The translations under genes and the position numbers were made by a program. This document shows positions 4,478 to 22,808 of a stretch of 64,000 nt of DNA, in pieces (position 1 is the stretch's first letter; every line of letters starts with the position of its first letter). The notes beneath the pieces were generated by a model. It ran no database searches, had not been told where the DNA came from, and saw only the letters and a list, made by a program, of their open reading frames with translations. Origin of the DNA: Anaerotruncus colihominis (GTDB lineage: Bacteria > Bacillota > Clostridia > Oscillospirales > Ruminococcaceae); the NCBI GenBank assembly GCA_025146135.1, contig CP102255.1, positions 2,852,001 to 2,916,000 of the forward strand. Direction: 5' to 3'.

Positions 4478-5269
4478 TCAGGGGCTGTCTGAAAGCAGCA
4501 AAGCCGCCCCGGCTTTCGCAGGCTGTTCCCAGCCCTCCATGCGCCGCATAGCCTCCAGCCGGGCCACGCCGACACGGACAGCGCCTGCACACAGCAGCGA
4601 TGAGATTTCATCAAAGCTTTTAACCGGTCCGCTTGCTTTCACGGCGGCCTGTTCGCCGATCAGCTCCATAGCCACACGCACATCGCCCGGATCGGTACAG
4701 CGGCGCAGTGCAATCCCGGCCGCACCACAGCGCCGCACCGCTGTCATCACCTGCTCAAGCTCCGCTGCCGACAGCGTCTTGAAATCGATCAGTATGGACA
4801 GGATGCGTCCGCCGGACTGGGCCAGACGCGCCAGCTCCTCCAGCGCGGCCCGCTCTGAGGCCAGCGCGCCCGACTTGACCGCCGCCAGATCGAGCGCGAC
4901 CTCCAACTCATCCGCTCCGGCCTCTATGCAGTCCTTTACGAGCGCCGTGCGCGCCCGCGGCGTCAGCGCGCCCCACGGATGCCCCACCGCCGCGGTCAAA
5001 ACGGTCGGGCTGCCGCTCAACAGCCGCCGTCCAAGCGGCAAAAAATACGGCGGGAGCGTCACCGCCGCCGCACCGAGCATGCGTGCCTGACGGCACGCAT
5101 GCTCTATTTGTCCCTGTGTGCAAAGCGCAGACAGAAGCTCGAGCGAAACGGCTCCCGGCACGGTGGACGACTCCGGCCATCGCTGCGCCCGGCCGCCGCC
5201 AGGTCCTTTGCCGCGGGCGGCGCGCAGCATCTGCTGCTCCACCACGCTTACAATCTCATGCCGTTCCAT
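4478..5269 (-). CDS. DeoC (DERA)-like protein with N-terminal encapsulation-peptide-like helix; Schiff-base lysine missing
   Basis: A 263-aa protein related to deoxyribose-phosphate aldolase. GADELEVALDLAAVKSG (118-134) matches the DERA GATEVDMVINVGALKDG region, and VKASGPVKS (210-218) keeps the second active-site lysine (K211). The segment that normally reads FVKTSTGF, carrying the Schiff-base lysine, is instead GAAGIALRRCTD (182-193), with no lysine between 164 and 211. Activity as an ordinary aldolase is therefore doubtful. Residues 1-20 (MERHEIVSVVEQQMLRAARG) form an amphipathic helix, followed by a Gly/Pro-rich linker, the layout of BMC encapsulation peptides. The start ATG has GGGAGG 8 nt upstream. 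It is the last gene of the shell operon. Confidence 0.8.
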   Translation of the reverse strand: MERHEIVSVVEQQMLRAARGKGPGGGRAQRWPESSTVPGAVSLELLSALCTQGQIEHACRQARMLGAAAVTLPPYFLPLGRRLLSGSPTVLTAAVGHPWGALTPRARTALVKDCIEAGADELEVALDLAAVKSGALASERAALEELARLAQSGGRILSILIDFKTLSAAELEQVMTAVRRCGAAGIALRRCTDPGDVRVAMELIGEQAAVKASGPVKSFDEISSLLCAGAVRVGVARLEAMRRMEGWEQPAKAGAALLLSDSP

Positions 5270-5325
5270 GGCCGTGCCCTCCCTTTCTGCCAAAGCAACG
5301 CACACAGCTTTTGACGTTTTAAAAT

Positions 5326-5613
5326 TTAAAAATAGCTTTTTATTTCACCGTCAAGACAAATGCTGTCCAAAATGCCGCAGATTGTCATATCCGCGATCAC
5401 ATGTTTTCCCAGAAAGATGGCCGATGCGCCGCCGTCTGTGCTTACGAGTACCACGTCGCCCACGCCTGCCTGCGCTGCGTCAAAGACAACGGCGTTTTCC
5501 CCTGTCCGGCGTCCCGCGCCGTCCAGAAAATCGACAATCATCAGCTTTTGTCCCGCATGGCTTGGGTCCTTGACCGTGGACACAATATTGCCTACAACCT
5601 GCGCGACCCGCAC
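5326..5613 (-). CDS. BMC vertex protein, EutN/CcmL family (1 of 3)
   Basis: A 95-aa protein of the EutN/CcmL pentamer family, which caps the vertices of microcompartment shells. It shows the family start (VAQVVGNIVSTVKDPSHAGQ), a central hydrophobic barrel and the end ADMTICGILDSI. It starts with GTG at 5613, with GGAG 7 nt upstream, and begins 4 nt after the preceding BMC-H gene. The two other EutN-family genes in this operon are clearly diverged from it. Confidence 0.93.
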   Translation of the reverse strand: MRVAQVVGNIVSTVKDPSHAGQKLMIVDFLDGAGRRTGENAVVFDAAQAGVGDVVLVSTDGGASAIFLGKHVIADMTICGILDSICLDGEIKSYF

Positions 5614-5617
5614 AGAA

Positions 5618-5896
5618 TCACTCCTTCAAGGCGGGAAGGATCGCCTCGACCTCGTCGGCCGGCGACGGAATCACATGCACGCCATACACCTCGCCGACGC
5701 GCTTGGCGGCGGCAGCGCCCGCCTCCACAGCGGCCTTCACCGCGCCCACATCGCCGCGGACCATCACCGTGACAAGCCCGGAACCGATCTGCTCCTTGCC
5801 CACAAGCGTGACGTTTGCTGCTTTGACCATCGCGTCGGCCGCTTCGATCGCGCCAACCAGCCCACGTGTCTCAACCATACCAAGCGCTAATTTCAT
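5618..5896 (-). CDS. BMC-H hexameric shell protein (1 of 2)
   Basis: A 92-aa single BMC domain of the PduA/EutM/CcmK type that tiles shell facets. It has the edge motif [12 protein letters not shown], the pore-side stretch [20 protein letters not shown] and the C-terminal VHVIPSP. The ATG at 5896, 8 nt after GGAG, is preferred to the GTG three codons upstream. It is nearly identical to the BMC-H at 6197-6472 (about ten substitutions), and an EutN gene lies between the two. The canonical length and motifs leave no doubt about the family. Confidence 0.96.
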
Positions 5897-5908
5897 TTCA
5901 AACACTCC

Positions 5909-6190
5909 TTAATTTATATCATTTGGAATCGCGATATGACAGGTATCGATGATCCCGGCAATCGACGCGTCGGACGGCACCAGCTCGCGCCGGAATACCT
6001 GTGCCGCATGTTCGGAGCCGATCAGATAGACCAGATCGCCCTGGCCGGCCTGGCCGGTTGAATCGGCCGCCACAATCATCCTGGTGCGTCTGCCCTTTTC
6101 AATAAGCTGCACCACCAGCAGCGGGATGTTTTTCAGCCCTTCTGTTTTGACGGTTGATACCACCCGGCCGGTCACCTCGCCGATATACAT
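5909..6190 (-). CDS. BMC vertex protein, EutN/CcmL family (2 of 3)
   Basis: A 93-aa EutN/CcmL-type protein (MYIGEVTGRVVSTVKTEGL at the start, VPSDASIAGIIDTCHI near the end). It sits between the two BMC-H genes with 12- and 6-nt gaps, consistent with one polycistron. In the CcmL fold the GLKNIPLLVVQLI segment is the first long strand pair. Different EutN paralogues in one operon usually mean mixed or specialised vertices. Confidence 0.93.
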   Translation of the reverse strand: MYIGEVTGRVVSTVKTEGLKNIPLLVVQLIEKGRRTRMIVAADSTGQAGQGDLVYLIGSEHAAQVFRRELVPSDASIAGIIDTCHIAIPNDIN

Positions 6191-6196
6191 ACAGCC

Positions 6197-6472
6197 TTAC
6201 TCCTTGACAGGCAGAATCGCCTCGACATCCTCGTGCGGCGAAGGGATCACATGCACGCCGTACAATTCGCCCACATTTTTCACGGCGGCCGCCCCCGCTT
6301 CAACCGCGGCTTTCACCGCGCCCACATCGCCGCGGACCATCACCGTGACAAGCCCGGAGCCGATCTGCTCCCTGCCCACGAGCGTGACGTTTGCAGCTTT
6401 CACCATCGAATCGGCCGCCTCGATCGCACCGATCAAGCCGCGTGTCTCAACCATACCGAGTGCTAATTTCAT
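6197..6472 (-). CDS. BMC-H hexameric shell protein (2 of 2)
   Basis: A 91-aa BMC domain, almost a duplicate of the BMC-H at 5618-5896: same [12 protein letters not shown] start and the same [19 protein letters not shown] core, with differences mainly at the C-terminus ([12 protein letters not shown] versus [13 protein letters not shown]). The ATG at 6472 is 8 nt after AGGAGG; the ATG at 6478 is too close to it. This looks like a tandem duplication or gene conversion within the operon. Confidence 0.96.
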
Positions 6473-6549
6473 TGTCATATCCTCCTGTTGTTATAAAATC
6501 GGATGCTGTCCCTATCATTTCCGGCCCTTCATCCGTCCGGCTTTTGAAC

Positions 6550-7095: not shown

Positions 7096-8405
7096 ACGGT
7101 CGCCTTCCTTATCTCAATATAGCTGTCCGTCACTGCGGTCACGGTGCCGGAAATGCTCGCATGCATTTTCACACCCAGTTTTCCGGGGGCGATATCGGCT
7201 ATCAGCGTGTTCTTGCGTACCTTGTCCCCTACGCCGACCACCGGGACGCTTGGCGCCCCCACGCCCATGCGCAGCATGATACGCACCTGCCCGGTTGGGA
7301 GCAGCTTTTCCGACAGCGGCGCGTCCACGTCGTAGCGTTCCAGGCCCATCCGTGCGATCAGGCGTTTAACGGGCAGCTTTTTGTCGTCGATGCTGCGGTC
7401 AGCGCGGGTATAAACCTCCTTGCGCGGCTTGACGCCCTTCTGCGCAAGCATCGCCTTCATCTGCTGCATCGCCTGAGACGGCTTCAGCCCAAAATTGCAG
7501 GCGTAGTATGTACACACCCCGCAGTTGCAACAGGAAAAAACCCCGTTCGCATCGCCGAGCAGGTCGGTTCCCTGTGCGATTGTCCGCATCGCCTTGTGCG
7601 GCTGGACGTTCAGGCCAAGGGCGTTGCGCGGGCACATCTGCGTGCACATGGAGCACTGACAGCAAACCGACCGGATCAGCTGCATGTTGAGCGTCTCCTC
7701 GCGCAGCTTCCACAACGGATGATCCACCGGAAAAGCCAAAAAGCCGCCGGTCGTCTTTGTCACCGGGACATCCGGGTCGTCCACCACGCGGCCCATGCAC
7801 GGGCCGCCGATAATATAGCGGCACGGCTCGGCCGTACCGCCGGCCGCCTCAAGCAGTTCCCGGCAGGAGATGCCGACCGGGACCTTGAACGTGCGCGGCG
7901 TGCGCACCGCGCCGCCAACGGTCACATACTTTTCAACCACCTTTTTGCCCGCCGCGGCGTCCGCCACATTGAGCAGGGTGCTCGCGTTGCAGACGACCGC
8001 ACCAACGTCCAGCGGCAGGCCGCCGGTCGGTACGACGCGTCCCGTCACCTCGTAAACGATCTGCTGTTCGTCGCCTGCCGGATAATATTCGCGCAGCAGG
8101 TGCAGCCGGAGCTGCCCAAACGGTTCGATCGCGGCGCCCAGAGCCTTGACCGCGCCTTCATAATGTTTTTTCAGCGCGATGACGCCCTCCTTCGCGCCGG
8201 TCTGTTCCATCACCAGGCGCAGCCCCTCCACGACCTCGGCCGCGTAAAGCTCCATCACCTGCTGATCGACCCGCAAAAGCGGCTCGCACTCCGCGCCGTT
8301 GACGATGACAGTCCCGGCCTGGCAGTTGATCTTTACATGCGTCGGGAACCCCGCGCCGCCCGCGCCCAGGATTCCGGCGTTCATCACCATTTCCTTAACA
8401 TCCAT
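7092..8405 (-). CDS. pduS: PduS-like Fe-S flavoprotein oxidoreductase (RnfC-like)
   Basis: A 437-aa protein of the PduS/RnfC family. Residues 1-30 contain the glycine-rich GILGAGGAGFPTHVKI, the central domain has VYEVTGRVVPTGGLPLDVGA (NADH/FMN region), residues ~245-305 hold two ferredoxin-type clusters (CCQCSMCTQMCP and CCNCGVCTYYACN), and a C-terminal SLBB/barrel-sandwich part follows. PduS moves electrons between NADH, flavin and Fe-S centres and binds the PduT trimer. Here no cobalamin-dependent diol dehydratase is present, so a role in regenerating internal nicotinamide for the alcohol dehydrogenase is more likely than cobalamin reduction. Confidence 0.9.
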   Translation of the reverse strand: MDVKEMVMNAGILGAGGAGFPTHVKINCQAGTVIVNGAECEPLLRVDQQVMELYAAEVVEGLRLVMEQTGAKEGVIALKKHYEGAVKALGAAIEPFGQLRLHLLREYYPAGDEQQIVYEVTGRVVPTGGLPLDVGAVVCNASTLLNVADAAAGKKVVEKYVTVGGAVRTPRTFKVPVGISCRELLEAAGGTAEPCRYIIGGPCMGRVVDDPDVPVTKTTGGFLAFPVDHPLWKLREETLNMQLIRSVCCQCSMCTQMCPRNALGLNVQPHKAMRTIAQGTDLLGDANGVFSCCNCGVCTYYACNFGLKPSQAMQQMKAMLAQKGVKPRKEVYTRADRSIDDKKLPVKRLIARMGLERYDVDAPLSEKLLPTGQVRIMLRMGVGAPSVPVVGVGDKVRKNTLIADIAPGKLGVKMHASISGTVTAVTDSYIEIRKATV

Positions 8406-8443
8406 ATATGACTACCTCAACTCTGATCTGTCACACGCCGAAA

Positions 8444-8752
8444 TCAGCTTTCACCGCTGACAAACTTTTCAAACACGCGCTTGCCGCCGATGTCCACCGA
8501 GTCGATGATCGCGGCGATCGTCAGGTCGGTCGGCTTGTTCACAGTCAACTGCGTCTGGCGGGAGGAGCTGCCGCTGACGAGCATGACGACCTCGCCCTCG
8601 CCGGCGCCGACCGCATCGATGGCGACCATCGGCGCGCCCTTCTCCTCCCAGGTTTCAATATCGATCGGCTTGACGATCAGCAGCTTCAGCCCGGTCAGGG
8701 TTTCCGCTTTGTTTGTGCTGACCACCGTGCCCTTTACTCTTGCCAACTGCAT
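8444..8752 (-). CDS. BMC vertex protein, EutN/CcmL family (3 of 3)
   Basis: A 102-aa EutN/CcmL protein, the most diverged and longest of the three (MQLARVKGTVVSTNKAETL at the start, PTDLTIAAIIDSVDI near the end, then a short charged tail). The ATG at 8752 is chosen because GAGGAG lies 7 nt upstream; an in-frame upstream extension would overlap the neighbouring gene. It lies between the flavoprotein-like gene and pduS. Confidence 0.92.
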   Translation of the reverse strand: MQLARVKGTVVSTNKAETLTGLKLLIVKPIDIETWEEKGAPMVAIDAVGAGEGEVVMLVSGSSSRQTQLTVNKPTDLTIAAIIDSVDIGGKRVFEKFVSGES

Positions 8753-8765
8753 CGGCTCACTCCTC

Positions 8766-9422
8766 TTAGTACCGCAGCCGCACACCCGTTTCATTCAAGG
8801 CGTCCCGGGCGGACGGCGTGATGATCGCGCCGGGGCTGCACCAAACCGTTTTGTCCACAGTCCGCGCGGCCTGGCGCACGGCTTCCTCCGTCACCAGCGT
8901 CAGCCGTTCATGCTGCTGCACGCGGTGGTAATTCACTGTCTCCACATTCATGGAGGCCAGCGTCTCAAGCGCATCGGCGACCTGCCCAAGCAGGCTGTTG
9001 CGGTGAAAGCGCGGCGGGTCAAAATCCAGCAGCAGCTCCACTTTTTTGCCCCACAGGATCGCACGGATGACCAGGAAGGCCAAATCCGTCCCATCCTCTC
9101 CCGCGGCGATCTCCCGCAGGAGGGCGACGGACGGCGCCGCCAGGGCGACCGTCTCTGCCTGCGACGTCAGCGCGAGCAGGCGCCCGCGTTCCAATTGCTC
9201 CGGCGGCAGCGCGTTTTGCATCGTGCCGGAAAAATCCGCCATAATCCAGCCGCCGTATCGCTCTGCAAGGCATCGGCCAAGCTCCTCGGGGAACGCCGCC
9301 GGGGCGGGCAACAGGACGATATGCGCGCTGCTGCGGCCCTGGCCGCCGTTCCTGCGCGCCAGCCGCCGGTCCACCTCGGCGGCGACCTGCTCAATCAGGC
9401 TGTGCATCTGTTCCCTATCCAT
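8766..9422 (-). CDS. BMC-associated flavoprotein-like protein with N-terminal targeting-like helix
   Basis: A 218-aa protein. Residues 1-25 (MDREQMHSLIEQVAAEVDRR...) form an amphipathic helix followed by a Gly/Arg linker, the pattern of an encapsulation peptide. The remainder looks Rossmann/flavodoxin-like (HIVLLPAPAAFPEELGRCL, a later AFLVIRAILWGKKVELLLDF) and ends with ITPSARDALNETGVRL, a tail I associate with conserved hypothetical proteins of Eut/Pdu-type loci. No catalytic motif could be recognised, so enzymatic function is unknown. It sits between the alcohol dehydrogenase and a vertex protein and is probably a core protein. Confidence 0.6.
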   Translation of the reverse strand: MDREQMHSLIEQVAAEVDRRLARRNGGQGRSSAHIVLLPAPAAFPEELGRCLAERYGGWIMADFSGTMQNALPPEQLERGRLLALTSQAETVALAAPSVALLREIAAGEDGTDLAFLVIRAILWGKKVELLLDFDPPRFHRNSLLGQVADALETLASMNVETVNYHRVQQHERLTLVTEEAVRQAARTVDKTVWCSPGAIITPSARDALNETGVRLRY

Positions 9423-9446
9423 ATCCGTACCGCCTCAAGCTGAAAA

Positions 9447-10646
9447 TCAAAGCCCCTGCCGGCGGACCGCCTCCACTACAAGGCCCTCGCAATATGTCTT
9501 TGCGATGATGCGGGCTACCTCGCCCTCAACAGCGTCAACCGGATTTGAAGGTGTGCAGGTATCCTCCATCGCATGGCGGGCCAGCAGCGGGATATCGTCC
9601 ATGGAAAATCCATAACGGTGCAGCGGACGGATACCGATGTCCTCGCTCAGATCGCGGACGCAGTCGGCCGCCGTTTGGGCCGCCTCCTGAGCGGGCAGGC
9701 CGCGGATATCCGCCCCCAGCGCGGCTGCGATATCGCCCATGCGTTCCAAACAGGCCGGGATGTTATATTCCATCACACGGGGCAGGATCTGCGCGCAGGC
9801 AGCGCCATGCGGGATATGGTACTGCGCGCCGAGCTGATGGGCGATGCTGTGCCCTAGCCCCAGGCCCGCGTTTGAAAAGGCGAGTCCCGCCATATATTCC
9901 GCCCAGCACATATCGGTGCGGGCCTGCATGTCGCAGCCATCGGCCACAGCCCTGCGCAGCGACCTGCCCACCAGGCGGATGGCTTCAATCGCCAGCGCGT
10001 CCGTGTAGGGCGTGGCCTCGCGGCAGGTATACGCCTCCACGGCATGAGTCAGCGCGTCCATGCCGGTCGCGGCTGTAAGGGAAGGCGGCATCCCCACCAT
10101 CAGGGTCGGATCGTTAATGGCCAGATACGCCAGGCAGTTCGGGTCCATCATGACCATTTTGACGTTTTTCACCTCGTCGGTGATCACATATGCGCATGTC
10201 ACCTCGCTGCCGGTGCCTGCGGTTGTGTTGACCGCCACGATGGGCACGCCCGGCCGCGCCGACTTGCGCACGCCGCAGTAATCCTCAATGCGGCCGCCAT
10301 TGGCGGCCAGAATGCTTACTGCCTTGGCCACGTCGATCGGCGAGCCGCCGCCGATCGCGATGATGCAGTTACAGCCCTGACGGGTATACTGTTCCATCGC
10401 CTTGTTGACAACGCCAACCGAGGGATTCGGCTGCACGCCGTCGTATGTCCAGTATCGAATTCCGGCGCGGTCAAGCACATCCGTAACCTTTTTGACGGTC
10501 CCGATTTTTACCAAACCCTGGTCGGTTACAACCAGAGCCGTCACCGTGCCTTCCAGCCTGTGCAGGAATTGCGGTATCTCCAAAATGCTGTTTTCCCCGA
10601 TCAGTGTGTGGCGGGGCTGTACCAGCTCGACCACATGATTCTCCAT
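9447..10646 (-). CDS. Iron-containing (group III) alcohol dehydrogenase, PduQ/1,3-propanediol-dehydrogenase type
   Basis: A 399-aa NAD-dependent alcohol dehydrogenase. The nucleotide-binding motif GGGSPIDVAK is at 99-108, and the metal ligands are Asp197 and His201 (GMDALTHAVEAY), His266 (GLGLGHSIAHQ) and His280 (YHIPHG). In metabolosomes this family reduces an aldehyde to an alcohol, regenerating NAD+ inside the shell. No separate encapsulation helix is evident. It is the first gene of the shell operon, directly after the promoter at 10756-10785. Substrate identity (acetaldehyde or a methylthio-aldehyde) is inferred from the neighbouring aldolase. Confidence 0.92.
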   Translation of the reverse strand: MENHVVELVQPRHTLIGENSILEIPQFLHRLEGTVTALVVTDQGLVKIGTVKKVTDVLDRAGIRYWTYDGVQPNPSVGVVNKAMEQYTRQGCNCIIAIGGGSPIDVAKAVSILAANGGRIEDYCGVRKSARPGVPIVAVNTTAGTGSEVTCAYVITDEVKNVKMVMMDPNCLAYLAINDPTLMVGMPPSLTAATGMDALTHAVEAYTCREATPYTDALAIEAIRLVGRSLRRAVADGCDMQARTDMCWAEYMAGLAFSNAGLGLGHSIAHQLGAQYHIPHGAACAQILPRVMEYNIPACLERMGDIAAALGADIRGLPAQEAAQTAADCVRDLSEDIGIRPLHRYGFSMDDIPLLARHAMEDTCTPSNPVDAVEGEVARIIAKTYCEGLVVEAVRRQGL

Positions 10647-10887: not shown

Positions 10888-11991
10888 TCACTGCGCAATA
10901 CCGGCCATTCCGAACCAATGACGCTTGAGCGGATAGTCCTCTGTCAGCTGCGCCGTCCACTGCTCATACGTCTGCTCGCGCAGCCGTTCCTCCACGGCCT
11001 GATCCCGGGCCGCTTCATCCTGGTTGAGCCCAATGTAAAACAGGATAAAATACCCCGCGTCTTTATAAGCGACGGTCCCAACATCCCCATATGCGCGGGC
11101 GGGATCCGTCAGCCATGCGCGGTTGCCTTCGTTAAGACGTGAAACAAGCATCGTCTGAAGGGTGGCGCCGTCGTCCGCATACGTTTGCTGTTCGTCAGCG
11201 GACGCATAATCCCGCGCCATCTGTGCGAAGGAAGCTTCGTCCGTCACCTTCGAGGCGGCTTCTTCGGCTTGCTCCTGGCTGGAGCCCGCGTAATAAAAGG
11301 AACGGAAGGTCGCCATATCAAACGTTTCCGGCGACGCCTCGTAAGCCGCCTGAATCTCCGACTGATCAAAGGTCAATCCCGTCCTGTACGCATTCCGATA
11401 ACTCTCGGCCAGCTTCACCGTTTCCACAAATTTCTGATAGGTATCAAGGTTGCAGCCCGCGCCGACAGTCGCGGCCAGATAGCTGTCCGCGTCGGCATAG
11501 CCGTCGCTCTCCGCCATGCTTTTTATCAGGGCCGTCTCCTCCTCTACCGCGGCCTGATCCTCCGGCCGCAGCGTCCAGCCCGCCTTCCGCGCCTCCGCCG
11601 CAACAGCGTAATCACTCTGGATGGCCGCGTCGGCCTGCCCTTTGACCAGATCGCGCCAGTCGGACCCGGTCGCCTCGTCGTAGTAACTTTCGAGGCTTTC
11701 ACCGCCTGTCATGGAGAATACAGAGGATATCTCCGCATACGCCTTGCTGAAATAACAACTGTATGTAGCCGCGCTTACCTTTATATCGCCGACCGTCACC
11801 GCTGTGGCCCATCTGGCGTAAAACCCGGTAGCGGCCAGCGCCATAGCGAGCACCGCAAGCAAAGCCGCCGCTGCGGCGATGCATGCCGCAGTCAATCGAA
11901 TACGCCGGCGCCGCTGCGCCGTCTGCACGGCCGCTGCGCGGCCGGCGGGCGTTGCTGCCGGCACGCCGCCGGTTCGGTTTTTTCTGCTCAT
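10888..11991 (-). CDS. Membrane-anchored PrsA/SurA-like (parvulin-type) protein
   Basis: A 367-aa protein. Residues 1-30 are Arg/Ala-rich and cytoplasmic, residues ~31-55 form one transmembrane or signal-anchor helix, and the rest is an extracytoplasmic region resembling SurA/PrsA chaperones: an N-terminal helical part, then a parvulin-like stretch (FDMATFRSFYYAGSSQEQAE ... GDVGTVAYKDAGYFILFYIG). Its start (ATG after AAAGGGAG) is only 12 nt past the stop of the class II aldolase, so the two appear co-transcribed. A surface folding factor in a microcompartment operon is unexpected; it may serve the lipoprotein importer or be a bystander. Prolyl-isomerase activity is not certain because the rotamase domain is weakly conserved. 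Confidence 0.65.
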   Translation of the reverse strand: MSRKNRTGGVPAATPAGRAAAVQTAQRRRRIRLTAACIAAAAALLAVLAMALAATGFYARWATAVTVGDIKVSAATYSCYFSKAYAEISSVFSMTGGESLESYYDEATGSDWRDLVKGQADAAIQSDYAVAAEARKAGWTLRPEDQAAVEEETALIKSMAESDGYADADSYLAATVGAGCNLDTYQKFVETVKLAESYRNAYRTGLTFDQSEIQAAYEASPETFDMATFRSFYYAGSSQEQAEEAASKVTDEASFAQMARDYASADEQQTYADDGATLQTMLVSRLNEGNRAWLTDPARAYGDVGTVAYKDAGYFILFYIGLNQDEAARDQAVEERLREQTYEQWTAQLTEDYPLKRHWFGMAGIAQ

Positions 11992-12003: not shown

Positions 12004-12852
12004 TTACCGCTTAGTGCGCGCCATCACCTGGCGCACGATATCCACGATATCCTCCATCGCGACAGTTCCCGCGTCCGCCCCGGCCGGCGGCTGACCGCCA
12101 TGGGTACACTGCCCGCCGCATTTTTTCTGTTCCATACAGGCTGGAACGCCGTCTTTTCCGACATTTTGACATACTGGGCGGCCGCCGGTACTAATCCCCA
12201 GCCGTGTACGCGTGTCGACAAGCTGATCGATCTGCTCGCAGGAAAGCTCGTTGGCCTGTCCAATGATGCTGCCTGTATACATAGTCACAAGCGCATAATA
12301 TTCAAGCGACTCCATGCGGAAATACGCCTGCATCGGGTCCTTTCCCCAAGTCAGCGCACCGTGGTTGGCCAGAAGGACGCCGTTGTGCGTTTTACAGAAC
12401 GGCGCGATCGAATCCGGCACCTCCTGCGTACCGGGCGCAGCATACGGCGCGACGGGCACCTCGCCGAGCTGCACCACCGCCTCCGGCAGAATAGCCCGTG
12501 AGAGCGGGATTCCCGCAATCGCAAACGAAGTGGCCACCGGCGGATGGGCATGTACCACACTTTTCACCTGCGGATTTTCGCGATAGACGCGCAGATGCAT
12601 TTTCAATTCGCTGGACGGCTTTGTGCTGCCGCGCAGGATATTTCCGTCCAAATCGACCTTGACAAGAATATCCTCCGTCATATATCCCTTGGAAACGCCG
12701 GTCGGCGTCGTCCACAGCTCGTTGTCACCGACCTTGCAGCTGATATTTCCGTCGTTGGCCGCCACAAAATTTTTGTTGTACATCCTTCGGCCAACCTCCA
12801 AAATCAGCTGCTTGGCCTCATAATCGCCCATATATTCGCCCATATTTCTCAT
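12004..12852 (-). CDS. Class II aldolase (L-fuculose-phosphate-aldolase family) with C-terminal encapsulation peptide
   Basis: A 282-aa metal-dependent aldolase. The zinc-site histidines are in HAHPP (H101, H103) and NHGALTWGK (H164), and the catalytic Glu is E82 (KPSSEL). Family members cleave L-fuculose-1-P, L-rhamnulose-1-P or, in DHAP-shunt organisms, 5-deoxyribulose-1-P/5-methylthioribulose-1-P into DHAP and an aldehyde. After the catalytic domain (~220 aa, the usual length) comes a Cys/Gly-rich linker (228-262) and an amphipathic helix VAMEDIVDIVRQVMARTKR (264-282), the classic encapsulation-peptide arrangement. The ATG at 12852 after GGGAGG is preferred over upstream in-frame ATGs. The neighbours mtnA and mtnK make 5-deoxy-pentulose-1-phosphates the most likely substrates. 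Confidence 0.9.
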   Translation of the reverse strand: MRNMGEYMGDYEAKQLILEVGRRMYNKNFVAANDGNISCKVGDNELWTTPTGVSKGYMTEDILVKVDLDGNILRGSTKPSSELKMHLRVYRENPQVKSVVHAHPPVATSFAIAGIPLSRAILPEAVVQLGEVPVAPYAAPGTQEVPDSIAPFCKTHNGVLLANHGALTWGKDPMQAYFRMESLEYYALVTMYTGSIIGQANELSCEQIDQLVDTRTRLGISTGGRPVCQNVGKDGVPACMEQKKCGGQCTHGGQPPAGADAGTVAMEDIVDIVRQVMARTKR

Positions 12853-15004: not shown

Positions 15005-16228
15005 TCACAGGCAGGCGGCGGCGTCCTTCAAAACCTTCAGGAAATCGGCGCCGCTGTGCAGCGCAGCGCGCTCTTTGATATATCGTTTGGCGGCCAGGAT
15101 GCAGATGCGCTCGGCGCGCGTGCGCTTCGCCTCGTCGGCAATGGTGGTCAAATCCTTGACGTTCGCCATGCCGACCGTGCGGCGGATCAATTCAAGGCCT
15201 GTAACAGCGGCGGTGTCGGACAGGATCGTGCCAAGATAATAATCCATATAGCCGGGCGTTTTGGCCATGCGGTCGGTGACATGCTCCGTATAGTATGCCT
15301 TCATTTTCGCCATTGTCAGATCAACCACATCGACGATCACCTGCTCGGCCCATCCGCAGAATTTGCCGCGCTCTGCCGGTTCGGCAATTTCCGCGTCGCC
15401 GTTGCACCATGCAAAGATGATATTTGCGACAACGTTGCCGATATCATAGCCCATGGGGCCATAGAAGCAGAACTCCGGATCGAACACCATGGTGGTGTCG
15501 TCGTTGATGAAAATGGAGCCGGTGTGCAGGTCGCCGTGAATCAACGACTGCGCGTTGCACATGAAGTCCATTTTCAGCTTGGCGACCTCCAAATGGAGCG
15601 CCGCGTCGTCATAAAGCTCCTTTTTAACAAAGTCGGCGTTGGGCGGATAGACGTTGTTGCGGTTTGCGCAGTTGTTATACGGCTCGGTATAGACAAGGTC
15701 CTCCGTAATTTCGCACAGCTCGGGGTTGATGTATTTCTTTTGAAGCTCCTTTTTCTCCTTGTGATCCAGCACGATGTCGGTCGTCCCCATCAGCGTATTG
15801 GCCATAAAAGTGGTGATCTGCTCGGCGAACTTCGGATAGATCTTGTGCTGGAGCATACTCGTGCGCATGATCGCATGATCGCTCAAATCCTGCATTCCGC
15901 AGGCGCACATCACCGTGTCATAAAAATAAATCTCTGGCACATAACCGGGCGCCAGTTTGCCCTGAAGCAGCAGAATTTCGGATTCAATGCGGTTTCGGTC
16001 GGTAGAAATGTGCATGTCGGCCGATATGCGCAGCGCCTCGCCGGCCTGCTTGATTATGGCAGAATGGCCCTTGCCATCCCAGACGCGGAACACATAGTTC
16101 AGGTTGCCGTCGCCGATCTCCTTGCACTGCATGGAGTTTTCGTCCCAGTCGAACCGCGTCACCTTTTCAAGGGCGTACTCCTTGGCGTCGTTTAGGTTCA
16201 TCAGAAAATAGCTGTCATACTTTTTCAT
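15005..16228 (-). CDS. mtnK: 5-methylthioribose kinase (MtnK-type)
   Basis: A 407-aa aminoglycoside-phosphotransferase-fold kinase. It carries the MtnK signature around the catalytic loop (HGDLHTGSIF) and metal site (DPEFCFYGPMGYDIG) and the N-terminal EIGDGNLNYVFRV loop. It phosphorylates free 5-methylthioribose (or 5-deoxyribose) at C1. The start at 16228 (ATG after AGGAGG) removes an arginine-rich upstream extension. It has its own promoter at 16334-16362 and is followed by mtnA, and the upstream ABC importer would supply the free sugar. Confidence 0.93.
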   Translation of the reverse strand: MKKYDSYFLMNLNDAKEYALEKVTRFDWDENSMQCKEIGDGNLNYVFRVWDGKGHSAIIKQAGEALRISADMHISTDRNRIESEILLLQGKLAPGYVPEIYFYDTVMCACGMQDLSDHAIMRTSMLQHKIYPKFAEQITTFMANTLMGTTDIVLDHKEKKELQKKYINPELCEITEDLVYTEPYNNCANRNNVYPPNADFVKKELYDDAALHLEVAKLKMDFMCNAQSLIHGDLHTGSIFINDDTTMVFDPEFCFYGPMGYDIGNVVANIIFAWCNGDAEIAEPAERGKFCGWAEQVIVDVVDLTMAKMKAYYTEHVTDRMAKTPGYMDYYLGTILSDTAAVTGLELIRRTVGMANVKDLTTIADEAKRTRAERICILAAKRYIKERAALHSGADFLKVLKDAAACL

Positions 16229-16487: not shown

Positions 16488-17474
16488 TCAATCCTCTTTC
16501 TTGGTTGCGTAAGCGGCAATCAACGCCAGAGCCAAGACCGCGCCCTTGACAGCCGGCAGCACATAGTACGAAACGCCAACCTGGGTAAGCCCGTTTTCCA
16601 GCGTGCAGATCAGCGCGGCGCCAATCATAGTACCGATCGCGTTGGGCTTTTCTGCGCCCCCCACAGAGCGCCCGACGAATACAGCGGCCAGCGACGGCAT
16701 CAGATAGTTGTCGCAGCCGGTGATCTGCGCGGCGGAGTTGCGCGAGCAGACGACCATCGCGCCGATGGCGATAAACACCGCGGTCACCATTCCGGCGATG
16801 AAGCGGTATTTCTTAACGTTGATACCTGAGAGCTTCGCGGCCGTCTTGTTGCCGCCCATCGCGTAGAGATAACGGCCGTGCTTGGTGTAGTTGAGGAAAA
16901 TAAACGCAAAAAGCACGCATGCCAGCATGATCAGGATGCACCAGGGAGCGCGTCCGATGTTCAAAAAGCCTTCGGTCCAGCCTTTGCGGATGGGTTCCGC
17001 TTTCCATGGCGTCGGCATACCGGAGGAAACCGCGCCGCCGCCCGTCCACCAGAGTCCAAGGCCCTGGTGCACGAACATCAGGGAGCAGGTCGCCAGCATA
17101 TCGGGGATTTTGCAGACCAGGATTAAAAACATGGTCAGCAGATACATAACCATTGTAAACACAATCGTCGCCAGGATACTGGCCCACAACGGCAGGCCGA
17201 ACCACAGAAACGTACTCGCGAACACATAGGCAGAGAAGGACGCCAGGGTGCAGGCGGACATATCAAATCCGTCCGGCGCCATGGTCACGGTTGCGGCGAT
17301 GGCAAAAATAGTGGTAATGGCCATGGCCCTTAAAATATTAATCGCATTGGCTGCGGAGAAAAACGCGCCGCCCTGGATGACTGTGAAAATAACGATAGAA
17401 ACCACAAGCGCGATAACGGCGGCCCAGTCCATCAGAAAACGGCCGGCGCTTTTCTTTTTGAGCAATTGATTCAT
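16488..17474 (-). CDS. Sugar ABC transporter permease (RbsC/BPD-transp-2 family)
   Basis: A 328-aa integral membrane protein with 8-10 hydrophobic segments and the family's EAA-like cytoplasmic loop region (GRYLYAMGGNKTAAKLSGIN). It belongs to the ribose/xylose/galactoside/AI-2 permease group. The ATG at 17474 has AGGGGGA upstream. It starts 43 nt after the ATPase stop. With the ATPase and binding protein it makes a complete importer. Substrate is inferred from the linked mtnK/mtnA as a free 5-modified ribose. Confidence 0.88.
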   Translation of the reverse strand: MNQLLKKKSAGRFLMDWAAVIALVVSIVIFTVIQGGAFFSAANAINILRAMAITTIFAIAATVTMAPDGFDMSACTLASFSAYVFASTFLWFGLPLWASILATIVFTMVMYLLTMFLILVCKIPDMLATCSLMFVHQGLGLWWTGGGAVSSGMPTPWKAEPIRKGWTEGFLNIGRAPWCILIMLACVLFAFIFLNYTKHGRYLYAMGGNKTAAKLSGINVKKYRFIAGMVTAVFIAIGAMVVCSRNSAAQITGCDNYLMPSLAAVFVGRSVGGAEKPNAIGTMIGAALICTLENGLTQVGVSYYVLPAVKGAVLALALIAAYATKKED

Positions 17475-17516
17475 ATGTATTTCCCCCTGAATGAGTGGAT
17501 TTATGCCGCAGCCCAA

Positions 17517-19250: not shown

Positions 19251-20477
19251 TCAGTCCCCCAGCAGGGCGGCCATCCAGTCGGTGGTGGGCATCCAGGAAC
19301 GATCGCTGTAGCCTTCGCCCGCAACCGTATCCAGGTTCATCACGTTGATTCCGCCGCCGGACACCATATCCTGGGTCACGACTGTGGTCGGCAGCTCGAG
19401 CCAATCGCTGGCCGTGCCAGTCATCGGGTCGATAATCTTATCGTACTCGCCGGCCATTTCCAGGGCCAGAACGCGCATACCGAATTCGCCGTTATAGTAC
19501 CAGTTGGTGGTGGCGCAGGCCTTCCACGGGGAATTAGCCGCGGCCATCTTGTCGATATCGGCGTTGCTGATGTCAACGCTGACCATTGGGATGTCGAAGT
19601 TGCCCTGGGTCAGAGCGGTATACACGCCGCTGGCGTACAGGTCATAGCAACACCAGATCGCATCGATGTCGCCCGGCTGGTATTTGGCCAGCGTGGCGGT
19701 CGTAACGTCGGTCATGGAAGCCTCGGCGTTGTTGAAATCGGACGGGCCGATTGTCTCAACCGTCTGGATAAGTCCTTCCTGCTCGTACTTCTCATAGCCG
19801 ACCTGGCGGCGGTCAAACGGCGAATTGAAGTTCGGGCCAACCCAAACCTTCAGAACCTTGACAGGCTCGCCGGCTGCGACCTTATCAGGATACAGGGTAT
19901 TGCAGATGTAGTCGAGCAGCAGCTCGGCAAACTGGGCATCCTGCTGGAAGAACTGGGTCACGCCCTCGATCTTCTGGGTTTCGCCGTTGCTGTCCTTAAA
20001 CGGGGTGTCGAAGGTTGCGATCTTCAGATCGGGATACTGTTTGAGCAGATCGGTCAGAAATGTGTAAGCGTAGTTCTGACCGCCGTGGCTGAGCAGCAGG
20101 CCGTCATAGCCGCCGGAAGCGCACTGGGAAACAGTATCCTGCCAAGTGGTATCCGAACCGTTGCAGAAGAACGCCTGATACTCCATGCCGAGACCCACCG
20201 CGGTTTTCTCCGCGTACTCGGACCACATCTGGAAAATGTCGGAAGGCGCCATCTGCATGATATAGGCAACCTTCTTGCCGGCCACAGGCGAGGCGCTTGT
20301 GTCGCCGGAGGGCGCGCTGGCGGCCGGCGCGCTGGCCGCAGGTGTGCTGGCATCGCCAGCCGGGGCGGTGTCTGCCGCCGGGGTGCTTGCAGTGCTGGCC
20401 GTGTTGTTGGAGCCGCCGCATCCGGCAACTGTCAAAAGCATTGCAAGAGCCATCATCAAAGCAATAATCTTTTTCAT
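19251..20477 (-). CDS. Sugar ABC transporter substrate-binding lipoprotein
   Basis: A 408-aa type I periplasmic-binding-fold protein. It has a signal peptide with lipobox LTVAGC (Cys20), a low-complexity Ser/Thr/Ala/Pro tether (21-70), and then the ribose-binding-protein-like lobes (VAYIMQMAPSDIFQMWSEYA; later GDIDAIWCCYDLYASGVYTA). It should deliver the sugar to the permease/ATPase pair encoded downstream. It has its own promoter and is divergent from dhaK. The exact ligand cannot be read from sequence. Confidence 0.9.
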   Translation of the reverse strand: MKKIIALMMALAMLLTVAGCGGSNNTASTASTPAADTAPAGDASTPAASAPAASAPSGDTSASPVAGKKVAYIMQMAPSDIFQMWSEYAEKTAVGLGMEYQAFFCNGSDTTWQDTVSQCASGGYDGLLLSHGGQNYAYTFLTDLLKQYPDLKIATFDTPFKDSNGETQKIEGVTQFFQQDAQFAELLLDYICNTLYPDKVAAGEPVKVLKVWVGPNFNSPFDRRQVGYEKYEQEGLIQTVETIGPSDFNNAEASMTDVTTATLAKYQPGDIDAIWCCYDLYASGVYTALTQGNFDIPMVSVDISNADIDKMAAANSPWKACATTNWYYNGEFGMRVLALEMAGEYDKIIDPMTGTASDWLELPTTVVTQDMVSGGGINVMNLDTVAGEGYSDRSWMPTTDWMAALLGD

Positions 20478-20537
20478 TGTATCCTCCTATTAATCTTTCT
20501 CCTGGGGGGCCGCTTACTGCTCCCCTGTGTTATCTCC

Positions 20538-20566
20538 AATTTAACACAGCCTGTTTGGTTTGTAAA
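20538..20566 (-). promoter_or_regulatory. Promoter of the sugar importer operon
   Basis: On the minus strand -35 TTTACA (20566-20561), a 17-bp spacer and -10 TAAATT (20543-20538) lie about 60 nt before the binding-protein start. Confidence 0.6.
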
Positions 20567-20962: not shown

Positions 20963-20991
20963 TTGACATTTTTTGAATTAAATTCTATGAT
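20963..20991 (+). promoter_or_regulatory. Consensus promoter of dhaK-dhaL
   Basis: -35 TTGACA (20963-20968), a 17-bp spacer and -10 TATGAT (20986-20991), 165 nt before dhaK. The sequence is near sigma-A consensus, so regulation probably depends on a repressor; an inverted repeat lies downstream at 21034-21061. Confidence 0.8.
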
Positions 20992-21033
20992 AAAATACAT
21001 ACAAAGCATTTATTTTATCCCTGACGGCCAATC

Positions 21034-21061
21034 TTATCATGCCGCGCTGCTGACATGATAA
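21034..21061. promoter_or_regulatory. Inverted repeat in the dhaK leader (candidate operator)
   Basis: TTATCATG (21034-21041) and CATGATAA (21054-21061) are perfect 8-bp inverted arms 12 nt apart, about 45 nt downstream of the -10 box. ATGATAAAAT also occurs at the promoter -10 itself, which suggests a shared binding sequence. Confidence 0.5.
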
Positions 21062-21155
21062 AATGTATCTGAAGGCATGCCGCTGACGTCTGAAAATGGG
21101 CGTCCCCTTCCCGCGCGGGCGGGGCGGCGTATCAAACAAGGAGGAATTTCATCAC

Positions 21156-22151
21156 ATGAAAAAGATCATCAATGCTCCTGAACAGTACACCGACGATATG
21201 CTCAAGGGAATCTATGCCGCGCATAGCGACGCGGTCAAATATGCGGACGGCGATCTGCGCTGTTACTGCACGGCAAAAAAGAAAGACGGCAAGGTCGCCA
21301 TCATCACCGGCGGCGGCACCGGCCATTTGCCGCTGTTTCTCGGTTATGTCGGCGAAAATCTGCTCGACGGCTGCGGCGTCGGCGGCGTGTTCCAGTCGCC
21401 TTCTGCCGAACAGATCTTCAACGTGTCAAAAGAGGTAGAAGCAGGAGCCGGCATCCTCTATTTATACGGCAACTACACCGGCGACATCATGAATTTTGAC
21501 ATGGCTGCGGAAATGTGTGAAATGGAGGATATCGAAACGCGTTCCATTGTGGGCGCCGACGATGTCAACTCCAACGCCAATCCCGACACGCGGCGCGGTG
21601 TGGCAGGTATCTTCTTTATGTATAAATGCGCCGGCGCCAAGGCCGCCCAGATGGGCACGCTCGACGAGGTGCTCGCCGCAGCGCAGAAGGCCAAGGACAA
21701 CACCCGCACCGTCGGCTTCGCGCTCACCCCCTGCATCATTCCGGAGGTGGGGCATCCCAATTTCACGCTCGGTGAAAACGAAATGGCCATGGGCATGGGC
21801 ATCCACGGCGAGCCTGGCGTCTGGAACGGACCGCTCAAGACAGCCGACGAAATCGCCGCCGAGTCGCTCGACACGCTGCTTGGGGATATGCCGCTGTCCG
21901 CCGGCGAGGAGGTCTGTCTGCTGATCAACGGCCTGGGCGCCACCTCTGTCGAGGAGCTTTATATCCTCAGCGGCAGCGTCACCCGCATCCTGAAGGAAAA
22001 GGGCGTCTCCATCTACCGCACCTTTGTCGGCGAGTACGCCACCTCCATGGAGATGGCCGGCGCCTCCATTTCGATCTGCCGTATGGCCGATCAAGAGATG
22101 AAGGAGCAGATTGACATGCCGGTGAATACGCCGTTCTACTGTCAGAAATGA
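21156..22151 (+). CDS. dhaK: Dihydroxyacetone kinase subunit DhaK
   Basis: A 331-aa DhaK. It has the substrate-site GGGTGHLPL (His56 region) and the covalent-binding histidine His217 (GMGIHGEPGVWNG), with the usual length. The subunit binds dihydroxyacetone, or in some paralogues erythrulose, as a hemiaminal; DhaL supplies the phosphate. The ATG at 21156 follows AAGGAGG. It sits divergent to the sugar importer of the BMC locus. DHA phosphorylation yields DHAP, the same product as the encapsulated aldolase, but whether the two converge physiologically is inference. Confidence 0.9.
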   Translation: MKKIINAPEQYTDDMLKGIYAAHSDAVKYADGDLRCYCTAKKKDGKVAIITGGGTGHLPLFLGYVGENLLDGCGVGGVFQSPSAEQIFNVSKEVEAGAGILYLYGNYTGDIMNFDMAAEMCEMEDIETRSIVGADDVNSNANPDTRRGVAGIFFMYKCAGAKAAQMGTLDEVLAAAQKAKDNTRTVGFALTPCIIPEVGHPNFTLGENEMAMGMGIHGEPGVWNGPLKTADEIAAESLDTLLGDMPLSAGEEVCLLINGLGATSVEELYILSGSVTRILKEKGVSIYRTFVGEYATSMEMAGASISICRMADQEMKEQIDMPVNTPFYCQK

Positions 22152-22163
22152 GGAGGCTTTAAA

Positions 22164-22808
22164 ATGACTGTGATCACCTGTGAGCAGCTTCCCGAGCTGT
22201 TCGCCGCGGTCGGCGGCCTGTTCACGGAAAAACGCGACGAGCTGTGTGAAATGGACGCTCAGATGGGCGACGGCGACTTGGGGCTGACTATGAGTAAGGG
22301 TTACGGTGCCCTGCCGCAGCTTTTGCGCGACAATATGGAGCCTGGTGACATCGGCAAAACGCTGATGAAGGGCGGCATGAAAATGTCCTCCGTCGTCCCC
22401 TCCACCATGGGCACGCTGATGTCCTCCGGCATCATGGCCGGCGGTAAGGCGCTCAAGGGCAAGCCGGAGCTTGACGCTGCCGGCCTGGCGGCCTATATTG
22501 CCGCCTTCGCAGACGGCATTCAGCAGCGCGGCAAATGCCAGCGCGGCAACCGTACCATTCTCGACGCGCTCGCCGCCGCTGCGGACAAGGCGTCCGCCCT
22601 TGTGTCCGCACATCCTGAATCTTCCTTGCAGGATGTGATCAACGCCGCTGTCGAGGGCGCCGGCGAGGGTGTGGAGGCTACCAAGTCCATGACGCCTGTA
22701 TTCGGCAAAGCGGCTGTTTTCGCTGCAAAGGCGATTGGTACGCCCGATCAAGGCGCTGTGGCGGGCCGGTATATGCTCATCGGAATGCAAAACTATATTT
22801 GCCAGTAG
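22164..22808 (+). CDS. dhaL: Dihydroxyacetone kinase ADP-binding subunit DhaL
   Basis: A 214-aa helical-barrel nucleotide-binding subunit. The Mg-binding aspartates lie in MDAQMGDGDLGLTM (about 30-43), followed by SSVVPSTMGTLMSSG and QRGKCQRGNRTILDA. It starts 12 nt after dhaK. No DhaM phosphotransfer subunit is encoded nearby, so the phosphate donor is either the general PTS with a distant DhaM or ATP directly; the sequence alone does not decide. Confidence 0.9.
   Translation: MTVITCEQLPELFAAVGGLFTEKRDELCEMDAQMGDGDLGLTMSKGYGALPQLLRDNMEPGDIGKTLMKGGMKMSSVVPSTMGTLMSSGIMAGGKALKGKPELDAAGLAAYIAAFADGIQQRGKCQRGNRTILDALAAAADKASALVSAHPESSLQDVINAAVEGAGEGVEATKSMTPVFGKAAVFAAKAIGTPDQGAVAGRYMLIGMQNYICQ

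Follow-up and report, generated by a model that had tools for sequence, protein, structure and literature searches.

For the locus at positions 4478-22808 of the window (the whole 64,000-nucleotide stretch of Anaerotruncus colihominis DNA that was analysed), the function is probably that of a catabolic bacterial microcompartment (BMC) for 5-deoxypentoses (5-deoxy-D-ribose and 5-methyl­thio-D-ribose). Since the pairing of mtn and shell genes is kept in other bacteria, breakdown of 5-deoxyribose/5-methylthioribose is suggested to run inside the organelle. This reading is based on gene content, conserved synteny, clade membership and purifying selection, from which we infer the substrate, the encapsulation and the direction of electron flow.

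All listed genes were intact open reading frames at the coordinates in Table 1. The host genome is a single 3.56 Mb contig, and its four PF00936 matches all lie within this locus. The components named in an earlier note on this DNA were recovered: the shell gene set, described there as complete, consists of two BMC-H, one BMC-T and three BMC-P genes (Pfam), mtnK and mtnA both exceeded the curated NCBIfam cut-offs, the ABC importer and DeoR regulator were recognised by Pfam (the sugar-binding lipoprotein just under cut-off), and the aldolase at 12004-12852 is of class II (PF00596) and ends, by eye, in a helix resembling an encapsulation peptide (EP).

Table 1. Features of the candidate 5-deoxypentose locus (positions within the window; bits with model cut-offs)
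Position	Strand	Feature	Support
4478..5269	-	DeoC/DERA-like protein	TIGR00126 70 bits, under cut-off 117; PDB DERA matches; N-terminal helix resembles EP
5326..5613	-	BMC-P (EutN/CcmL) pentamer	PF03319
5618..5905	-	BMC-H	PF00936
5909..6190	-	BMC-P (EutN/CcmL) pentamer	PF03319
6197..6478	-	BMC-H	PF00936
6550..7095	-	BMC-T, tandem (two BMC domains; labelled PduT-like here)	PF00936 twice; 71% to BMC-T of SPU-like locus L121
7092..8405	-	PduS/RnfC-like flavin/Fe-S electron carrier	PF01512, PF13375, PF13534; tree with L121
8444..8752	-	BMC-P (EutN/CcmL) pentamer	PF03319
8766..9422	-	PduM-like protein	TIGR04493 25 bits, under cut-off 50; 38% to L121 counterpart; N-terminus resembles EP (by eye)
9447..10646	-	Iron-containing alcohol dehydrogenase, lactaldehyde-reductase-like	PF00465/PF25137; TIGR02638 412 bits, under cut-off 523
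10888..11991	-	Apparently membrane-anchored protein within operon	
12004..12852	-	Class II aldolase (Ald2/DrdA type by context)	PF00596
13088..13846	+	DeoR-family regulator, divergent	PF00455, PF08220
13911..14975	-	MtnA, 5-methylthioribose/5-deoxyribose 1-phosphate isomerase	NF004326 450 bits (271), TIGR00512 424 (279)
15005..16228	-	MtnK, 5-methylthioribose/5-deoxyribose kinase	TIGR01767 394 bits (275); PDB match 2olc, methylthioribose kinase
16488..17516	-	Sugar ABC importer permease	PF02653
17517..19046	-	Sugar ABC importer ATPase (double)	PF00005 twice
19251..20477	-	Sugar-binding lipoprotein	PF13407 34.3 bits, just under cut-off 35.1
21096..22151	+	DhaK-like kinase subunit (Dak1)	PF02733; dhaK1 339, below cut-off 406
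22164..22808	+	DhaL-like kinase subunit (Dak2)	PF02734; DhaL 102, below cut-off 138

The window aldolase falls in a group of 22 rows (support 100/99), and mtnA or mtnK was present in the same stretch for 19 of these. Other BMC aldolases of the same bacterial family lie outside this mtn-linked group (100/100 in a smaller tree); neighbours among these include rhamnose isomerase and diol dehydratase genes (L045), diol dehydratase and its reactivase (L048) and an FGGY sugar kinase (L050). A Cys-containing linker accompanies the EP-like helix of the window protein. By eye, an EP-like tail was present in all 12 shell-linked aldolases besides that of the window and absent from the shell-free, mtn-linked aldolases L047, L051, L054, L074, L078, L150 and L152. 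The tail by itself is no proof of encapsulation, because the mtn-linked aldolase has a like tail in all four genomes covered from a single genus (L109, L111-L113), none of which has a PF00936 match genome-wide; the helical moment of the window tail is also unexceptional, with 203 of 2000 shuffles equally high. The nearest solved structures are those of other aldolases, with 6btd, taken here as DrdA, in fifth place; the substrate is therefore assigned from context alone.

Searching with the aldolase gave 15 named loci, and 12 of them have shell genes. Proximity of mtnA and mtnK among relatives had been set beforehand as a test of the assignment, and both genes were kept beside the same-clade, shell-linked aldolase at nine of the ten shell-linked loci with upstream DNA covered (L064-L069, L071, L072 and L077), the shells of which, except in the sister species (L064), are of a different lineage from that of the window. 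These nine loci represent about four lineages, and the hosts of shell-linked mtn loci are assigned to Oscillospiraceae, Lachnospiraceae and Bacillaceae. The exception, L075, has the aldolase and a type A shell (see below) without mtnK or mtnA in 7.5 kb upstream. With mtn genes, shell genes and aldolase recurring together in other bacteria, the assignment proposed in the earlier note is supported as a candidate. The pairing is rare, since none of 29 other sampled MtnK genes (13 from the class, 16 from the phylum) had a shell gene within the stretch covered; in the surroundings of the aldolase, mtn and shell genes were found together in one of 18 other family genomes (G033, Acetanaerobacterium).

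Judged from gene content, one cargo pathway is paired with two shell chassis. The type A chassis comprises an aldehyde dehydrogenase (AldDH) and PduL together with one BMC-P and four or five BMC genes of a single domain each, and acylating AldDH and PduL were present in most shell-linked loci. The window chassis has PduS, a tandem BMC-T and three BMC-P, and the sister species L064 has the same gene set. Its closest match, and the nearest other shell relative found, is the SPU-like locus L121, which is without mtn genes; shell genes, PduS, PduM-like protein and iron-containing alcohol dehydrogenase (Fe-ADH) match in order and identity (the PduS tree had 8 rows and the alcohol dehydrogenase tree 12).

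No CoA-acylating AldDH was found in the window locus (Pfam and NCBIfam) or in L064, and the window locus had no PduL; the earlier note did not mention these two absences from the window locus. Elsewhere in the host genome there is one full-length PF00171 protein of the methylmalonate-semialdehyde type (MMSDH), about 1.36 Mb from the locus, and two further partial PF00171 matches within one 419-aa frame, which was taken for a putative ProA. The single PduL-type PTAC of the genome lies outside the locus and, by eye, is without an N-terminal extension. With neither AldDH nor PduL in the locus, and with a DERA homologue that has lost its Schiff-base lysine, the aldehyde is probably only reduced in the window species.

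In the predicted pathway, the sugar would be taken up by the ABC importer and converted in the cytosol by MtnK to the 1-phosphate and by MtnA to the 1-phosphoketose. The ketose phosphate would then enter the shell, where the EP-tailed aldolase would yield dihydroxyacetone phosphate (DHAP) and acetaldehyde (or 2-methylthioacetaldehyde), with DHAP leaving the shell for glycolysis. In the window species, the Fe-ADH would reduce the aldehyde with electrons from glycolytic NADH, perhaps via PduS and BMC-T; in type A loci the aldehyde could also pass through acyl-CoA and acyl-phosphate to ATP. A more specific reading, tentative as a whole and rather doubtful, is that an SPU shell served Anaerotruncus as the base for an organelle that works one way only, by reduction. 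In this scenario the DHAP shunt aldolase took the place of the deoxyribose cargo, AldDH and PduL were given up, and the DERA, catalytically dead, was retained as a scaffold that bears an EP. The organelle would be a pure electron sink, acetaldehyde to ethanol (or methylthioacetaldehyde to 2-methylthioethanol), with electrons entering through PduS and BMC-T, and DhaKL, divergent from known DhaK/DhaL, would feed free 5-deoxypentuloses to the same aldolase. If true, such an organelle would make fermentation of 5-deoxyribose possible for an anaerobe; E. coli, although it has the shunt too, is reported to be unable to ferment this sugar (PMC10986504).

The resemblance to L121 raises the alternative of an SPU compartment that processes 2-deoxyribose 5-phosphate, in which the DeoC-like protein would be the signature enzyme and the DHAP shunt would run alongside in the cytosol. 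The shell composition fits SPU4, a BMC-T being present in a few cases, and PMC8156839 lists A. colihominis among the carriers of SPU4. We consider this unlikely: alignment showed the Schiff-base lysine to be absent from the DeoC-like protein in both Anaerotruncus sequences but kept in the L121 homologues and in two canonical DeoC of the same genome, no Pfam match (pfam01791 type) was obtained even at E 5, and its dN/dS against the sister species (0.32) indicated the weakest constraint among the genes measured. Compared with SPU compartments, the window locus is without RpiB, AldDH and PduL and adds the class II aldolase and mtn genes, and the gene common to type A loci is the aldolase, not DeoC. 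RpiB (pfam02502) was found by BLAST neither in the window nor in L121; the host genome has three matches elsewhere, the nearest about 0.3 Mb from the locus. The absence of AldDH and PduL and the missing lysine of the DERA homologue could also mark a decaying remnant, with the shunt running without a functional shell. This is quite unlikely given that the shell genes are under purifying selection between the two species (dN/dS 0.010-0.106), as are PduS (0.067), Fe-ADH (0.074) and Ald2 (0.064), and that the sister species keeps the gene set. The values for MtnK and MtnA were 0.032 and 0.016.

There is little probability that L-fucose/L-rhamnose is the sugar degraded, with fuculose-1-P or rhamnulose-1-P cleaved by the aldolase as in PVM/GRM5 and mtnK and mtnA as bystanders. 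PVM, PVM-like and GRM5 compartments have in common with the window a homologous class II aldolase, a DeoR regulator and the conversion of a ketose-1-phosphate to DHAP and an aldehyde (predicted in the window), the Fe-ADH resembles lactaldehyde reductase, and PMC8156839 describes human-microbiome PVM-like BMCs as likely using a substrate similar to that of PVM. Against this, the window aldolase groups with mtn-linked ones, mtnK and mtnA accompany nearly all informative shell-linked loci, and no rhamnose isomerase, FGGY kinase, diol dehydratase or glycyl radical enzyme (the last unlike GRM5) was recognised among the window locus genes, which include mtnK/mtnA instead of fucose/rhamnose genes. 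The PVM/PVM-like pairing of class II aldolase with AldDH is likewise absent from the window locus; in catalogues, the name PVM-like may refer to the type A relatives. The rhamnose/fucose-type BMCs with diol dehydratase (L045, L048, L050) share a BMC-linked aldolase with an EP-like tail but differ in its clade, and no mtn genes were found in their stretches. The halophile Ru1P aldolase route converts ribose via ribulose-1-P to glycolaldehyde, and the Ru1P-aldolase model is among the sub-threshold matches of the window aldolase. Ribose as substrate is nevertheless highly improbable, the match lying far under the cut-off (91 bits versus 300) and the kinase being MtnK-type; according to PMC6079011, the characterised DrdK acted, among the sugars tested, on 5-deoxyribose and 5-methylthioribose only and was inactive on ribose.

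The preferred 5-deoxypentose reading draws on the DHAP shunt, whose features MtnK, MtnA and mtn-linked class II aldolase are all present. The shunt operons of E. coli ATCC 25922 (mtnK-mtnA-ald2) and B. thuringiensis (drdK-drdI-drdA) likewise place these three enzyme families next to each other, and that of E. coli also has a putative transporter gene and a repressor acting on the operon; the window aldolase differs in its linker and EP-like tail and in lying inside a shell operon. Of the metabolosome (catabolic BMC) features, the locus has the alcohol dehydrogenase but neither AldDH nor PduL. It resembles BUF (BMC of unknown function, no AldDH) in its complete shell without AldDH, but has an alcohol dehydrogenase and a nameable aldehyde-producing enzyme. 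The earlier note knew of no BMC assigned to 5-deoxyribose/5-methylthioribose; our search of the open-access literature found none either, and the word microcompartment is absent from the three papers considered on the DHAP shunt and 5-deoxyribose disposal.

These are waste sugars from a universal cofactor, 5-deoxy sugars being leftovers of radical-SAM enzymes, polyamine synthesis and other SAM chemistry, and according to PMC10986504 they are excreted by E. coli without the shunt. The locus suggests a way for anaerobes to ferment such sugars with acetaldehyde contained, and offers a shell without AldDH whose likely job is nameable and testable. If true, it would also supply a substrate for compartments that are listed in catalogues without an assignment or perhaps under other sugars.

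In addition, the host genome encodes an MTA/SAH nucleosidase above cut-off. DhaK was found in 8 of the 12 shell-linked loci, and the DhaK-like subunit is a possible second entry route. The protein at 10888..11991 matched no Pfam or NCBIfam family and nothing meaningful in the PDB, and is conserved in L064 (88%).

For the compact locus encoding bacterial microcompartment (BMC) shell proteins together with MtnK and MtnA, an encapsulated DHAP shunt is a well-supported candidate function. The shell set, mtnK, mtnA, the ABC importer, the DeoR regulator and the class II aldolase claimed for this locus by the earlier note were all present in Pfam and NCBIfam searches, from which the family assignments in the window were made (see table). 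MtnK and MtnA scored above the curated NCBIfam cut-offs, while the DeoC-like and PduM-like proteins scored below them. No BMC-domain match was found outside the locus in the whole genome (one contig, 3.56 Mb), and no Rfam family reached its gathering score in the window. Counterparts of the locus proteins in the sister species (L064, Anaerotruncus colihominis JM4-15) were 86-99% identical. The weakest constraint measured was that on the DeoC-like protein, which is still constrained (dN/dS 0.32), followed by the PduM-like protein (0.21) and the other 17 genes measured (0.010-0.140).

Features of the window and of the compared loci
Stretch	Position	Strand	Feature
Window	4478-22808	almost entirely minus	compact BMC and mtn locus
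Window			first part in transcription order: sugar-binding lipoprotein, ABC ATPase, permease, MtnK, MtnA; then divergent DeoR regulator
Window			middle part: class II aldolase, 10888-11991 protein, Fe-alcohol dehydrogenase (Fe-ADH), PduM-like, BMC-P, PduS/RnfC-like
Window			end: BMC-T, BMC-H, BMC-P, BMC-H, BMC-P, DeoC-like protein
Window	10888-11991		protein of 367 aa
Window	12004-12852		class II aldolase
Window	21096-22808	plus	DhaK and DhaL, past the importer
Window	38295-62361		cluster resembling an extracellular contractile injection system
L058	1293-2963		DhaK and DhaL
L072	2328-3740		O-acetylhomoserine sulfhydrylase
L039 (window's own genome, C1, ~3.22 Mb)	7219-9624		second class II aldolase
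Type A loci			start: aldolase, aldehyde dehydrogenase, four single-domain BMC genes, PduL, BMC-P, solute-binding protein
Type A loci			rest: pyridine-nucleotide-disulphide oxidoreductase, two CoA-transferase subunits, Fe-ADH, DhaK

Neither aldehyde dehydrogenase nor PduL was found in the window locus (Pfam and NCBIfam), and both are likewise absent from L064. The single full-length PF00171 match in the genome is a methylmalonate-semialdehyde-type dehydrogenase (548 bits, cut-off 448.5), a second frame with two partial matches is probably ProA, and the one PduL-type PTAC, encoded elsewhere, is without an N-terminal extension by eye. The slot of the aldehyde dehydrogenase in type A loci is occupied in the window by the 367-aa protein, which is apparently membrane-anchored, lies 12 bases after the aldolase and is kept in L064. 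This protein had no Pfam or NCBIfam match, and its two PDB matches (E 0.7-0.9) were judged to be chance and discarded as a guide to its identity.

A scan of the named genomes with the aldolase yielded 15 loci, 12 of them with shell genes (L064-L073, L075, L077). L070 and L073 start just upstream of the aldolase and hence stand outside the mtn count; both mtnK and mtnA were present in nine of the 10 informative shell-linked loci (L064-L069, L071, L072, L077), so that their proximity to a shell aldolase, set as a test by the earlier note, is conserved. These loci belong to Anaerotruncus (L064), Acetanaerobacterium elongatum (L065), Saliterribacillus persicus of the Bacillaceae (L072), and Lacrimispora and differently named records with near-identical or similar aldolases (L066-L069, L071, L077). 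Since the aldolases of L066-L068, L070, L071 and L077 are near-identical, the nine loci represent about four lineages. In L075 (Equihabitans), mtnK and mtnA were absent from 7.5 kb of upstream DNA, whose frames resemble housekeeping genes, and in L072, unlike the other shell-linked loci, DeoR, Fe-ADH and DhaK were not found in the stretch. L074 and L078 (Selenomonadales) carry the aldolase and MtnA with no shell genes in the stretch, and L076 is a 3 kb fragment. The MAGs behind L066, L068 and L077 are named Paenibacillaceae and Hungatella, and their aldolases are almost identical to that of Lacrimispora xylanisolvens; these names are probably wrong.

MtnK was detected at E <=1e-60 in 14 of 391 genomes of the class and 18 of 398 of the phylum. 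Around 29 distinct other MtnK genes from the two samples, in stretches extending 6.9-9.5 kb to one side of the gene and 1.3-10.2 kb to the opposite side, BLAST gave an MtnA match in 23 cases, an aldolase match in 21 and shell genes in none, and MtnK alone therefore failed as a guide to such compartments. Ald2-type aldolase matches were observed in 74 of 197 family genomes; among the 18 besides the window's own that were fetched at length, mtn and shell genes occurred together in one (G033, Acetanaerobacterium), shell genes without mtn in six, mtn without shell genes in three, and neither in eight, several of those stretches being short. The DHAP shunt is thus usually shell-free; its pairing with a shell is exceptional and, where it occurs, conserved. 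Within the genus, BMC-domain matches were found in 7 of 11 genomes, the window's count of four recurring in just one other (G197).

A 53-row tree placed the window aldolase in a group of 22 rows (100/99). For 19 of these, the window among them, the stretch also carries mtnA or mtnK, the exceptions being L070, L073 and L075. The remaining BMC aldolases of the window's bacterial family form a separate 14-row group (91/91). The tree excludes ORFs <180 aa, the short loci L079-L107 and L125-L140, L040 (a copy of L065), L059, L076 and L039. In a tree of 23 of these rows, L068 being among those left out, the two groups were split with 100/100 support. Forcing the 12 shell-linked mtn-group aldolases into one clade of the 23-row tree was not rejected (p-AU 0.307), so that the aldolase is compatible with one union of the shunt with shells as well as with several; the different shell chassis speak for more than one. 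Glu82, His101, His103 and His164 of the window aldolase, which we take from FucA/DrdA to be the metal-ligand residues of the fold, are invariant in two alignments.

By the neighbours of three of its rows, the other BMC aldolase group is of the rhamnose/fucose type: rhamnose isomerase (596 bits) and the large subunit of a diol dehydratase are encoded in L045, diol dehydratase and reactivase in L048, and an FGGY kinase in L050. A GRM5-like label for this group was dropped, given the diol dehydratase genes in L045 and L048. Fucose or rhamnose was rejected as the first choice of substrate for the window on three grounds, namely where its aldolase groups, which genes adjoin the other group, and synteny, and a ribose/glycolaldehyde reading was weakly supported and set aside.

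The shell chassis of the window differs from that of the type A loci. The gene order given for type A is that of L065, L067-L069, L071 and L077, for which long stretches were available. NCBIfam identified the aldehyde dehydrogenase as EutE/PduP-like in L065 (659 bits, cut-off 403) and L067 (660 bits) and confirmed PduL in L065 (267 bits, cut-off 209), and Pfam confirmed four BMC domains, BMC-P and the accessory families in L065. Apart from L064, the nearest chassis relative found for the window is L121, which belongs to the same order but a different family. It was obtained with the DeoC-like query, which matched five of the 394 genomes searched in the order, the window's own among them. Its identity to the window is 71% for BMC-T, 70% for PduS, 80%, 65% and 58% for BMC-P, 81-84% for BMC-H, 60% for Fe-ADH, 38% for the PduM-like protein, and 24% and 31% for two DeoC homologues. 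The window grouped with L121 at 100/100 both in the PduS tree (8 rows), against rhamnose/fucose-type rows, and in the Fe-ADH tree (12 rows), against type A rows, each tree being built from selected loci with one gene entered twice. L121 carries aldehyde dehydrogenase and PduL, with mtn genes absent from the stretch and RpiB not found by BLAST, and looks like an SPU-type locus. The window DeoC-like protein aligns with DERA across most of its length, and its N-terminal helix resembles that of the L121 DeoC proteins. The lysine that we take to be the Schiff-base residue is substituted in both Anaerotruncus DeoC-like sequences and kept in the L121 and L122 homologues and in both canonical DeoC proteins of the window's genome. 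A 2-deoxyribose (SPU) function was rejected on account of the loss of this lysine. A. colihominis is named as an SPU4 carrier in a published survey (PMC8156839); the window agrees with SPU4 in its shell but not in SPU chemistry.

Encapsulation of the aldolase was considered from its C-terminal tail. As judged by eye, the window aldolase and each of the 12 shell-linked ones in the mtn group have a linker followed by a helix-like tail of the encapsulation-peptide type, which is missing in the shell-free, mtn-linked L047, L051, L054, L074, L078, L150 and L152; tails were viewed for aldolases scoring >150 bits to that of the window. The genome behind L047 (G006) has BMC genes on other contigs, and that behind L054 (G041) has none. 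Four genomes of one genus (L109, L111-L113) have an mtn-linked aldolase with a like tail and no PF00936 match, so that such a tail is either a relic of a lost shell or serves something else too. Amphipathicity was too weak to prove that the tail is an encapsulation peptide, since 203 of 2000 shuffled tails had a helical moment as high as that of the window tail. Several cysteines were seen in the linker of the BMC-linked aldolases of the window, L064, L065, L067 and L042, and none, by eye, in that of the L109-type aldolases.

MtnK/DrdK, MtnA/DrdI and a class II aldolase are described as converting 5-deoxyribose and 5-methylthioribose to DHAP and an aldehyde (PMC6079011, PMC10986504, PMC12632272), and these papers do not use the word microcompartment. 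In the encapsulated shunt, the importer would take up the sugar, the kinase and isomerase steps would be cytosolic, and the ketose phosphate would enter the shell and be cleaved inside, with DHAP leaving and the aldehyde being reduced by Fe-ADH. Oxidation of DHAP to pyruvate would supply the NADH consumed in this reduction, so that ethanol formation would keep the pathway in redox balance even though aldehyde dehydrogenase is absent; NADH may reach the lumen by way of PduS and BMC-T. In type A, aldehyde dehydrogenase and PduL would give extra ATP. In E. coli with the shunt, 5-deoxyribose is reported to be respired and not fermented (PMC10986504). As to sugar sources, an MTA/SAH nucleosidase encoded in the genome (149 bits, cut-off 73.8) points to an internal one and the importer to an external one. 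In Saliterribacillus, the O-acetylhomoserine sulfhydrylase (660 bits, cut-off 495) adjoins the mtn-BMC locus L072 upstream, its frame ending 27 bases before the binding-protein frame, which hints at sulfur salvage from methylthioribose, possibly as methanethiol.

DhaK adjoins both kinds of mtn-BMC locus: eight of the 12 shell-linked loci have it (L064, L065, L067-L071, L077), the other four having a short stretch or, in L072, no DhaK; DhaL is present where the stretch reaches. Since DhaK and DhaL of the window score below the equivalog cut-offs, their substrate may be another ketose. A further ketose-phosphate cleavage locus is perhaps present at L039, where the second class II aldolase adjoins DhaL and DhaK homologues.

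The catalogues assign SPU to 2-deoxyribose and PVM, PVM-like and GRM5 to fucose/rhamnose, and also list ACI and BUF (PMC4207490, PMC8217296, PMC8156839, PMC9052549, PMC6620236); in their accessible main text, supplementary tables aside, no BMC is assigned to 5-deoxyribose or 5-methylthioribose, and such loci may be filed in the supplements as SPU4 or PVM-like. No paper pairing a bacterial microcompartment with 5-deoxyribose or methylthioribose-1-phosphate isomerase was found in the open-access library searched. Microcompartments are mentioned together with another of the searched terms in PMC2982820, PMC6629762, PMC9397018, PMC13031608, PMC12583861 and PMC8147161. In A. woodii, a methylthioribose kinase gene adjoins the pdu cluster, and its authors regard this gene as having no part in BMC function (PMC7593272). 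The encapsulated shunt would represent a new substrate assignment in a known kind of organelle, with the window as an unusual variant without aldehyde dehydrogenase.

Elsewhere in the window, the cluster resembling an extracellular contractile injection system encodes an eCIS core domain protein (PF13699), an AAA ATPase with a variant winged helix, two Baseplate_J proteins, a Phage_base_V spike protein and a YQBQ-like protein.
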